Position numbers and translations under genes: made by a program | Shown here: positions 30,615-58,653 of the stretch, in pieces | Layout: every line of letters begins with the position of its first letter | Position numbering within the stretch: the stretch's first letter is position 1 | Notes under the pieces: generated by a model | What the model was told of the DNA's origin: nothing | The model's database searches: none | The model's input: the letters and a program-made list of their open reading frames with translations, nothing else | NCBI RefSeq assembly: GCF_900156455.1 | Contig: NZ_FTNQ01000001.1 | Coordinates: 1 to 64,000 of the forward strand | Direction: 5' to 3' | From: Microbacterium sp. RURRCA19A | GTDB lineage: Bacteria; Actinomycetota; Actinomycetes; Actinomycetales; Microbacteriaceae | DNA: 64,000 bases

Positions 30615-30618
30615 GTCG

Positions 30619-30691
30619 GACCGGGACCCGGCCCGCCGGCGCGGCGGGGCGGTTCCCGGGACCCGGCCCACCGGTATGGCGGCCGGGCGCG
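30619..30691. repeat. GC-rich hairpin repeat B, two diverged tandem copies
   Basis: A unit beginning CCGGGACCCGGCCC occurs at about 30619-30649 and again, better conserved, at 30651-30691 (GGTTCCCGGGACCCGG...GGTATGGCGGCCGGG). The unit can fold through CCCGGCC/GGCCGGG. The better copy is nearly repeated at 31960-32003. It follows gcvP by five bases and may serve as its terminator. Confidence 0.6.
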
Positions 30692-30733
30692 GCGGCGGTC
30701 GCGAGGGTTCCGGATCGCGAGGGCGCCGGATCG

Positions 30734-30800
30734 CGAGACTGCATCCCGCCGACATCTCCACTGCACGCTGCAGTAGAGATGTCAGGCGAGTGCAGTCTCG
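30734..30800. repeat. 67-nt nested palindrome A, copy 1
   Basis: CGAGACTGCA at 30734-30743 pairs with TGCAGTCTCG at 30791-30800. Inside it GACATCTC pairs with GAGATGTC, and inside that ACTGCA-CGC-TGCAGT forms a perfect hairpin. A second copy of the same 67-base length, with about eight differences, lies at 31892-31958. The two bracket the minus-strand gene 30831-31805. Confidence 0.8.
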
Positions 30801-30830
30801 CGGTCGGGAGGAGCGGATCATCGTGCTGCG

Positions 30831-31805
30831 TCAGCGCTCGGCACGCAAGAGGCGTCCGAGTCCCGACAGCCGATGGAGGTCGGGCGCGCAGTTCGGCGTG
30901 AGGCCGGCGGACAGCAGGATGTCGCGGAGACCCGACGGCTCGGCGACGTCGGCCCACGACCAGTGCGGGACCGTTCTCGCGCCGTGGCGGCGCAATCGAC
31001 GGTCCCGTTCCTCGCGCGCACGCAGCGCCGCCCCCGGATTGCCGAATCGGCCGTCGTACTTGAGGTGCCCGTCGGCCTCGCCCGCCACTCGGATGTCCGG
31101 CCACCACATGTCCGTGCGGTCGCCGTCGTCGTCCGACGACCCGATCCAGCGCTGCAACTCGGGCGCGGGGAAGCCCCACCACTCCGCAGCCGCACGGCTC
31201 ACCGACTCCAACGCGGACTCCGCTGCGCCGTGGGCGCGTGCGAGCGCCCAGCGCGCCTGGCGGCGACCTCGAGCGGAAGCGCGATCCTCGTTGAGTGGCA
31301 CCAACGTCGTAGCGGCGGTCGAGCCCCGGCGGATCGTTGCATCCGCCGTGACGAGACCAGCGGCCGGATGACGAACGCGCGCGATGTCGACACAGGTGTC
31401 GGTCGGTGAAGTGAGCAGTATGCCGCCCCGTTCCTCGACGAGACGGTCGGAGTGGGCGCTCGTGTGGACACGAACGCCGCTGACGCGACGCGATGTCGCC
31501 GTATCGCTCGCGAGCACGTGAACGGCGTCGATCTGCCCCACCACCGGAAGTCCCCACACGAGCGCCGCGGACTCGAGACAGAGCACGGCGTCGGGATCCC
31601 GGAGGAGGTGCGCGTGCACTCGAGCGAGATCACGTTCCCAGCGGGGGAGCGGATGCCAGTCGCTCGCCGCCGCGTATACCCCGCGGAGCACGAGCACCAT
31701 CTCGCCTCGGCGGATGCTTCGCGTCGAGTGGGTCAGTTCGGTCGCCCGCAGAAGCGGGATCGGCGTCGCGCTCGGTATCGATGTCACGACCCCAGGCTGT
31801 GGCAT
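30831..31805 (-). CDS. AbiEi-like / DUF559 (Vsr-type endonuclease fold) protein
   Basis: The 324-residue protein has an N-terminal part resembling the winged AbiEi antitoxin region (RRGEMVLVLRGVYAAASDWH) and a middle segment (LTSPTDTCVDIARV) common in AbiEi-family proteins. The C-terminal PD-(D/E)xK-like core has WWPDIRVAGEADGHLKYDG, with the Asp, Glu-x-Asp and Lys spacing of DUF559 nucleases. Such proteins are widespread in Actinobacteria and scattered in accessory positions. No toxin gene (AbiEii) lies next to it. Matching palindromes flank it on both sides. A nuclease role is inference. Confidence 0.75.
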   Translation of the reverse strand: MPQPGVVTSIPSATPIPLLRATELTHSTRSIRRGEMVLVLRGVYAAASDWHPLPRWERDLARVHAHLLRDPDAVLCLESAALVWGLPVVGQIDAVHVLASDTATSRRVSGVRVHTSAHSDRLVEERGGILLTSPTDTCVDIARVRHPAAGLVTADATIRRGSTAATTLVPLNEDRASARGRRQARWALARAHGAAESALESVSRAAAEWWGFPAPELQRWIGSSDDDGDRTDMWWPDIRVAGEADGHLKYDGRFGNPGAALRAREERDRRLRRHGARTVPHWSWADVAEPSGLRDILLSAGLTPNCAPDLHRLSGLGRLLRAER

Positions 31806-31891
31806 CCACGTCTACCTTTCGGTGCTGTCCACAGGCCCGGGCTCGCTCCGTCCGCGTGTGGAGGAAGGGTCCGCCCGCCCGCGCCCGTCGC

Positions 31892-31958
31892 CGAGACTGC
31901 ATCCGCGTGACATCTCGACTGCAGGCTGCAGTGGAGATGTCAGGCGCGTGCAGTCTCG
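31892..31958. repeat. 67-nt nested palindrome A, copy 2
   Basis: CGAGACTGCA at 31892-31901 pairs with TGCAGTCTCG at 31949-31958, with the same inner GACATCTC/GAGATGTC and ACTGCA/TGCAGT stems as copy 1. It lies 86 bases upstream of the minus-strand gene's start, so it is unlikely to be just that gene's terminator. Confidence 0.8.
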
Positions 31959-31959
31959 T

Positions 31960-32003
31960 GGTTCCCGGGACCCGACCCACCCGTATGGCGGCCGGGGACG
32001 CGG
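31960..32003. repeat. GC-rich hairpin repeat B, copy next to palindrome A2
   Basis: GGTTCCCGGGACCCG and TATGGCGGCCGGG at 31960-32003 match 30651-30691 closely and in the same orientation. At the left site B precedes A; here B follows A directly. Confidence 0.65.
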
Positions 32004-32031
32004 CCCAGGGGAACCCTCAGGGTCGATTGGG

Positions 32032-32037
32032 TAGGGT
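32032..32037 (+). promoter_or_regulatory. -10 box (TAGGGT) of a leaderless promoter
   Basis: TAGGGT is followed by exactly six bases and the GTG at 32044. This favours that start over the ATG at 32074. Confidence 0.55.
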
Positions 32038-32043
32038 GCCCCT

Positions 32044-58532: not shown

Positions 58533-58582
58533 TTTCGCTGCGGCGCCGTCCGTGCGTGCGCGACGGCCACACCGCAAACGAG

Positions 58583-58641
58583 AAACGCCCTCCCCGGCGA
58601 GACACGGCGCCTCGTGGCGTGTCTCGCCGGAAAGAGCGTTT
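58583..58641. terminator. Long hairpin in front of the dapD end
   Basis: CCGGCGAGACAC (58594-58605) pairs with GTGTCTCGCCGG (58619-58630). Outside an internal bulge, AAACGC (58583-58588) pairs with GCGTTT (58636-58641). It lies 12 bases beyond the dapD stop on the opposite strand and is the likely dapD terminator. Confidence 0.75.
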
Positions 58642-58653
58642 ATCGAGGAGTGG

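Follow-up and report, generated by a model that had tools for sequence, protein, structure and literature searches.

The first 64,000 nucleotides of contig NZ_FTNQ01000001.1 (assembly GCF_900156455.1) of Microbacterium sp. RURRCA19A, referred to here as the window, contain a gene for an AbiEi-like protein that lies between two copies of a 67-nt palindrome. The locus raises the question of what ties this gene to its palindromes. A preliminary description, made from the sequence alone, had proposed that the flanks resemble the ends of a non-autonomous cassette or a cluster of repetitive extragenic palindromic (REP) sequences that hosts accessory genes. Comparison with other genomes led to a partly different answer: gene and flanking palindromes most likely form one unit, in which a resident nuclease of the AbiEi-Vsr type, inherited mostly vertically, is coupled with its cognate 67-nt palindrome. 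Throughout, Microbacterium sp. RURRCA19A is the source genome (G000, "own"), genomes of relatives carry G numbers and extracted loci carry L numbers.

The gene and its flanking palindromes

The unit comprises three features of the window:

30831..31805, minus strand: gene for a 324-amino-acid AbiEi-like/Vsr-EDxHD-type protein (open reading frame, PADLOC AbiEi match, structure model, fold matches, invariant residues)
30734..30800, no strand: left palindrome A, 67 nt, hexamer layout 6-13-6-17-6-13-6 (folding and genome-wide copies)
31892..31958, no strand: right palindrome A, 67 nt, with 8 differences from the left copy (alignment and folding)

The two 67-base palindromes with about eight differences had been described correctly; the number is exactly eight. 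As single-stranded DNA, the left and right copies fold with -29.1 and -30.9 kcal/mol (z -8.2 and -7.5, respectively; 0 of 200 shuffles as good). Palindrome A has a 32-3-32 geometry with the outer hexamers CGAGAC/GTCTCG and inner hexamers that start 19 bp further in. A search of the hairpins against Rfam returned two sub-threshold microRNA matches only, which were taken as chance. On reading the open reading frames, no other plausible gene was found between the two palindromes, so there is no adjoining AbiEii toxin gene.

Dispersed palindromes in the source genome

Palindrome A occurs as a family of dispersed copies. When the source genome was searched at the DNA level, 48 matches were obtained counting both strands, and the genome holds 23 near-complete copies, the window's two included, as well as a degenerate one at C4:733774. 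All 23 measure exactly 65 nt from the GAGACTGCA start to the TGCAGTCTC end (67 when the outer C and G are counted), and a few elements in other genomes (G063, G112) span 66 or 67 nt between the same ends. By inference, the copies are mostly intergenic; a rough estimate from the GC content of third codon positions placed 10 of them between convergent, 10 between tandem and 3 between divergent genes.

These settings bear on two other explanations. The palindromes could be operators, that is, sites of an AbiEi-type regulator, with the flanking pair serving autoregulation and the dispersed copies forming a regulon or chromosome-organising sites; no copying would then take place and the nuclease half would have another role. 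By the same rough estimate, most A copies are not obviously in promoters, which speaks against operators. Alternatively, the palindromes could be passive hairpins, such as bidirectional terminators or structural repeats spread by recombination, whose nearness to the gene would be incidental to selection for the gene's isolation. The strong folding and the 10 of 23 copies roughly assigned to convergent gene pairs are in line with this explanation, which we nevertheless hold to be very improbable on the grounds given below.

The REP-like character ascribed to the locus earlier is borne out in so far as A is a dispersed palindrome family; the cassette hosting accessory genes is not. Five closely spaced pairs read elsewhere bracket ordinary resident genes: MFS/ArsR genes in the source genome and, in two other genomes, genes named by eye as folD, SDR, DUF805-like and TetR-like. 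The MFS/ArsR gene pair is conserved in G198, where one of the two palindromes is missing. Because these five pairs bracket resident genes while AbiEi-like genes are bracketed systematically, the cassette reading was rejected.

Paralogs and matched repeat pairs

Bracketing was quantified by a pair score, for which the 500-550 bp on the upstream side of a gene were matched locally against those on its downstream side and the best match was taken; the threshold was 40, and no hairpin was required. The source genome has five further homologs that are 28 to 37% identical to the window gene (tblastn). Each of these lies within its own matched pair of repeats, different in sequence from A; for L042 and L044, the scores are only 47 and 45. 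On contig C5, the paralogs L040 and L042 are neighbours of genes that, translated by eye, look like rplK and rplJ for ribosomal proteins. The window itself contains a dispersed copy of one paralog's palindrome type:

58579..58645, no strand: dispersed CGATAA..TTATCG-type palindrome, of another family than A, whose gene-flanking pair brackets the paralog G000:C5:71363-72286

The L040-type palindrome (CGATAA outer, CGAGAC inner) keeps the 67-nt layout despite its quite different sequence. It occurs at no fewer than 41 distinct places in the source genome, own pair counted (65 matches, merged), which is a lower bound with 40 of 81 first-look candidates scored. In 285 kb of the source genome, five further copies of the L043 type and two adjacent further copies of the L044 type were found. 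At least three of the five paralogs' palindrome types are thus dispersed and, with A, four types occur in one genome. The 67-nt span is less uniform at other loci: of 45 pairs that were trimmed automatically, 14 measure exactly 67 nt and the rest 50 to 79.

AbiEi-like genes are systematically bracketed by a matched repeat pair, which is usually palindromic. A first set of 34 loci comprised the six genes of the source genome and 28 genus homologs (L073 was dropped at a contig end). In this set, 32 loci scored 40 or more, the others being L091 (29) and L069 (35), compared with 0 of 34 for the far flanks of the same loci (maximum 34). A second set of 59 loci from named genomes (48 titled Microbacterium) was reduced to 55 by dropping four at contig ends; 45 of these reached the threshold versus 0 of 46 far-flank controls (Fisher 2.6e-19). 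The two sets have 9 genes in common, 8 of them among the 55, and the second set scored 39 of 47 without them. Far flanks were relied on as the control because mismatched pairs were polluted by the synteny of conserved flanking genes (95% point of 331 in the first set; 18 of 300 at 45 or above in the second). The preliminary description had also considered that relatives might carry the same gene without a repeat; the opposite was observed in both sets. A second copy on the opposite flank at nearly every locus is a further point against operators.

Matched pairs were also found at distant homologs with 29 to 33% identity, namely in a Propionibacteriaceae and a Solirubrobacterales metagenome-assembled genome and in Rhodococcus. 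The matched parts are mostly palindromic as trimmed and weakly so in some cases (e.g. L044, L096, L174, L206), and the Rhodococcus element taken whole folds as a hairpin.

Palindrome type, gene clade and lineage

Among 40 loci chosen for having a pair, the left and right copies of one locus match with a median score of 75 compared with 18 between loci, and palindrome distance tracks protein distance (Mantel r 0.68, 0 of 2000 permutations, kinship ignored). By eye, CGATAA or GCATAA feet recur across the records L177, L179, L186, L187, L190 and L040 of the source genome, and two types, GAGAC (L153) and GCATAA (L187), occur together in strain ACRRU. As the feet recur across records and one strain holds two types, palindrome type appears to go with the gene clade and not with the host. 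Judged by their sequences, gene clades have their own palindrome types. Passive terminators would leave such clade-specific sequences unexplained, and the same applies to the match between left and right copies and to the constant 67-nt span of A.

The dispersed copies were compared with the flanking pairs of seven genomes, using 16 of 25 elements of G063 and 14 of 16 of G085 and leaving out the closest gene-bearing relatives. In this comparison, 47 of 51 copies were closest to their own genome's flanking pair: 17 of 21 in the source genome (3 ties, 1 other), 16 of 16 in G063 and 14 of 14 in G085. In a second comparison, G198, G167, G248 and G027 were added and G113 and G035 left out. Here the pairs of the closest relatives often fitted as well or better, so that the resemblance seems to be lineage-wise (species group) and not species-wise. 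At this level, the alignments show a resemblance between dispersed copies and the pair that flanks the gene in the same lineage. Such lineage-specific matches, weaker at close range, would be easier to understand with copying or conversion than with operators.

Distribution in the genus and history of the gcvP locus

A homolog (E <=1e-30) was found in 80 of 119 genus genomes and the GAGACTGCA element in 24 of the 119, with 1 to 45 copies each; a reversed-pattern control gave 0 in all 119. All 24 element-bearing genomes are among the 80 with a homolog (hypergeometric 1.9e-5 if independent, kinship ignored).

In the window, the nuclease gene is adjoined by gcvP (stop 30614) on one side and by a peptide-binding-protein gene (start 32044) on the other, in agreement with its described position between glycine cleavage and peptide transport. 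The 3' end of gcvP was located in 285 of 295 genus genomes, and by coordinates a homolog lies directly behind it in many of them. Among the 30 closest genomes, window included, the gene was present at this locus in nine (own, G198, G055, where a contig end cuts it, G027, G167, G063, G016, G248 and G104) and was not found in 21. Among these gene-less loci, two A-like palindromes are present in G053 and one in G150, and a palindrome of the CGATAA type takes their place in G084 (L143) and G073 (L141); a degenerate A in G268 and a CGAGACGGC variant in G204 were recognised by eye. In the other 15, no A- or CGATAA-type palindrome was detected by scan; one of them, G220, has another hairpin. Given these occupied, relic and empty states, the gene at the gcvP locus looks like an old resident that was repeatedly lost, leaving relics. 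One in-frame stop each was found in the homologs L084 (G018), L087 (G035) and G073:C4:189274, which are probably decaying genes; G035 retains 26 elements.

The unit is accompanied by a further repeat:

30651..30687, plus strand: repeat B, left copy, a 37-nt direct repeat outside the A-gene-A unit (alignment; no hairpin)
31960..31996, plus strand: repeat B, right copy, 35/37 identical to the left copy (alignment; no hairpin)
30616..30652, plus strand: weak third B-like stretch, 68% alike, probably GC-rich background (alignment)

Repeat B had been described as hairpins in the order B, B, A to the left of the gene and A, B to its right. Two copies in direct orientation are real; the third reaches no more than 68% similarity, and folding revealed no hairpin (z -0.3 and 0.5). 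No further copies were found in 285 kb of the source genome, save a short partial core at L057:9711. Despite the age of the locus, the two copies are 95% identical, and repeat B may have arisen recently, by duplication or conversion; a duplication of the target site is also conceivable.

The same locus could be explained by a homing-like mobile element, in which palindrome-gene-palindrome is or was autonomous as a homing-type nuclease gene standing free between hairpin ends, the solo palindromes resemble miniature inverted-repeat transposable elements and the gene is now mostly fixed and decaying. The occupied, relic and empty states at gcvP, the in-frame stops in three or more homologs, the direct repeat immediately outside the unit and a fold closest to the catalytic domain of a homing endonuclease (see below) would all suit such an element. 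On the other hand, the paralogs in the same genome are at most 37% identical to the window gene, which therefore has no recent copies, and the gene is constant in its place behind gcvP in many species. No homolog was found in plasmid and phage collections at E 1e-5, and repeat B was not seen, by eye, in those flanks of relatives that were read. We therefore regard a mobile element as unlikely, and the resident unit remains the preferred reading.

Turnover of dispersed palindromes

Observation of the individual sites showed that palindrome sites differ between species. In G198, the closest relative by gcvP, 13 of the 21 source-genome sites away from the gene could be placed and 10 of these lack a palindrome. 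At C3:213707 and C3:843711, the palindrome is common to both genomes and its inner part has changed; at C4:717202, G198 (L231) lacks the inner hairpin and keeps the outer arms, and at C4:102762 only the first hexamer is left. The degenerate source copy at C4:733774 is intact in G198. The absent sites differ by whole short intergenic stretches, which blurs insertion boundaries and any target-site duplication. Read across 14 relatives, a first site holds an A-type palindrome or variant in six; four of the other eight (G070, G171, G104 and G248) have, by eye, a shorter hairpin with GAAACGGCA-like arms. A second site holds A in 1 of 13 readable relatives, and in G248 an L043-type palindrome (L269) occupies the same slot.

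Such poor sharing of sites between close species is not expected of operators. In their favour, the outer arms are conserved at shared sites while the neighbouring sequence diverges (by eye). Occupation of one intergenic slot by different palindrome families in different species was seen at L143 (G084), L141 (G073) and L269 (G248); it would fit passive hairpins.

Two single loci deserve mention. At L102 (G053), the flanks of one palindrome map beside C9:91466 and C9:102289 of the source genome, 11 kb apart, as if the palindromes behaved like recombination points there. At L223 (G198), about 1.5 kb of extra sequence adjoins the shared palindrome at the source site C3:213707.

Predicted structure of the protein

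The window protein is predicted to consist of an N-terminal AbiEi-like DNA-binding region (residues ~15-192) and a C-terminal Vsr/EDxHD-type nuclease domain (~196-304). PADLOC AbiEi models match it (6.8e-8) and one model matches 45 of 49 homologs. An AlphaFold model from 49 sequences reached a mean pLDDT (predicted local distance difference test) of 91.8 and a pTM (predicted template modelling score) of 0.89. In VIA-align, residues 15-192 of the model matched AbiEi of Streptococcus agalactiae (6y8q) loosely, with Z 9.5 and a root-mean-square deviation (rmsd) of 6.6 over 164 residues. The match list of the nuclease domain was headed by the catalytic domain of the homing endonuclease I-Bth0305I (3r3p; residues 197-304, Z 10.2, rmsd 2.9, 94 residues) and by Vsr (1cw0; residues 195-303, Z 9.0, rmsd 2.7, 102 residues); two mitoribosome chains also reached Z 8.7 and 8.3. 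Foldseek alone gave nothing at E <=0.001 (best Rv2827c, E 8e-3), and a sequence profile searched against solved structures gave nothing at E 1. E200, D232, E243, D245 and R267 are invariant in the 49 homologs and K249 is nearly so; the invariant acidic residues would be compatible with an active nuclease.

The earlier label AbiEi/DUF559 can be kept for the N-terminal half as far as AbiEi is concerned, whereas DUF559 applies at fold level only, as the window protein has no match in Pfam or NCBIfam. Few homologs match the Pfam families DUF559 (5 of 49) and REase_MTES_1575 (4 of 49; E up to 0.01). For L043 and L044, two of the paralogs, and for the Rhodococcus protein, matches to both families were obtained; L043 and the Rhodococcus homolog pass the curated cut-off of DUF559.

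Proposed mechanism and comparison with known systems

Streptococcus AbiEi has been reported to bind two 23-bp inverted repeats that lie 3 bp apart (PMC3985639), and the EDxHD enzyme I-Bth0305I to dimerise on a target of nearly 60 bp (PMC3943268). Together with the 32-3-32 geometry of palindrome A, these reports led us to propose a dimer in which the AbiEi halves read and the Vsr halves cut or nick. By analogy, the AbiEi half would bind the palindrome with one protomer per 32-nt arm; the nuclease half, as its modelled fold suggests, could nick or cut the palindrome or its single-stranded hairpin during replication. Repair might then copy the palindrome to a new place or overwrite an existing one. 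A REPIN-like population would result, with one single-copy enzyme acting on it that is unrelated to the REP-associated tyrosine transposases (RAYTs). We give somewhat better than even chances to a nuclease that recognises its own palindromes and causes them to be slowly copied or converted, with a REPIN/RAYT-like life style.

Several results weigh against this explanation. In the comparison that included the closest relatives, the own pair was best for only 9 of 21 copies, with 4 ties, 4 that fit G167 and 4 that fit G198. Neither the co-occurrence test nor the Mantel test takes kinship into account, and the differences in sites between species are not polarised as gain or loss. G054 and G079 have 7 and 45 GAGACTGCA elements, yet the homolog read there has GAGACGG-type flanks, and G009 and G053 keep 3 and 6 elements though their gcvP locus is without the gene. 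Ten of the 55 loci of the second set score below 40 (L153, L168, L171, L172, L181, L191, L205, L207, L208 and L209). No convincing extra copy of the L041 and L042 types was found in 285 kb of the source genome. In the one Rhodococcus genome, the flanking pair is present and no dispersed copy was found; the pair is accordingly seen as the core feature and dispersal as lineage-specific. Finally, the fold Z values are modest; according to the tool, best values of 7 to 8 often arise by chance arrangement.

The main rival is the operator explanation. Besides the conserved outer arms, it draws on the AbiEi-like fold of the N-terminal half and on Streptococcus AbiEi, which represses its own promoter through the two inverted repeats (PMC3985639). 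In view of the second flanking copy, the settings and the poor sharing of sites, we consider it rather unlikely as a full account, though clearly less so than a mobile element. Operators and copying can both be true.

According to three publications (PMC3116915, PMC8049555, PMC3733652), RAYT genes are single-copy, REP-flanked and vertically inherited, and one genome may contain several REP types, each beside a different RAYT. The present system shares with RAYT/REPIN (REPtrons; also TIRtrons) the single-copy resident gene flanked by palindromes that are also dispersed in the source genome, the several orthogonal gene-repeat pairs per genome and vertical inheritance with loss. In contrast, the enzyme would combine AbiEi with a Vsr/EDxHD fold in place of Y1/HUH, and the palindromes span 67 nt and lack the GTAG (or CGTC) foot, their feet being CGAGAC, CGATAA, GCATAA, TGAGAC and similar. 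The Y1 transposase that the preliminary description had suggested looking for was not found in the source genome (0 matches to PF01797 at E up to 1, with matches in 10 of 14 control genomes). Since the life style is the same while enzyme, tag and span differ, the system appears to work like RAYT/REPIN without being a member.

Other known systems are more distant. AbiE type IV toxin-antitoxin systems have the AbiEi fold and inverted-repeat binding in common with the unit, but lack the nuclease domain and the palindromes on both sides and dispersed, and have an AbiEii nucleotidyltransferase toxin gene adjoining. The nuclease domain resembles I-Bth0305I and Vsr endonuclease in its modelled fold; unlike in EDxHD homing endonucleases, no intron or intein was seen, the DNA-binding half is different and the nuclease is predicted from the fold. 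MTES_1575 has been described as a Vsr-family nuclease domain in a publication whose main text has no word beginning with "palindrom" (PMC3710099). Classical DNA transposons or insertion sequences would be expected to show near-identical gene copies, which the source genome lacks.

Significance

Open-access papers yielded no account of cognate palindromes accompanying AbiEi or DUF559 genes, most subscription papers lying outside the search. The broadest proposal, whose chances we put just short of even, is that the RAYT/REPIN life style arose a second time, independently, in a large family of actinobacterial AbiEi-Vsr nucleases, often with several members per genome; each member would maintain and slowly multiply its own 67-nt palindromes, acting as a dimer that recognises two hexamers in every arm and nicks or cuts the hairpin. 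Dispersed bacterial palindromes are usually ascribed to Y1 transposases or left unexplained, whereas here a different nuclease family matches them clade by clade. Orphan palindromes of Actinobacteria thereby gain a candidate partner that can be tested directly, and the family provides a natural collection of orthogonal protein-DNA pairs. A function other than that of an antitoxin is also suggested for proteins with domains now named AbiEi or DUF559.
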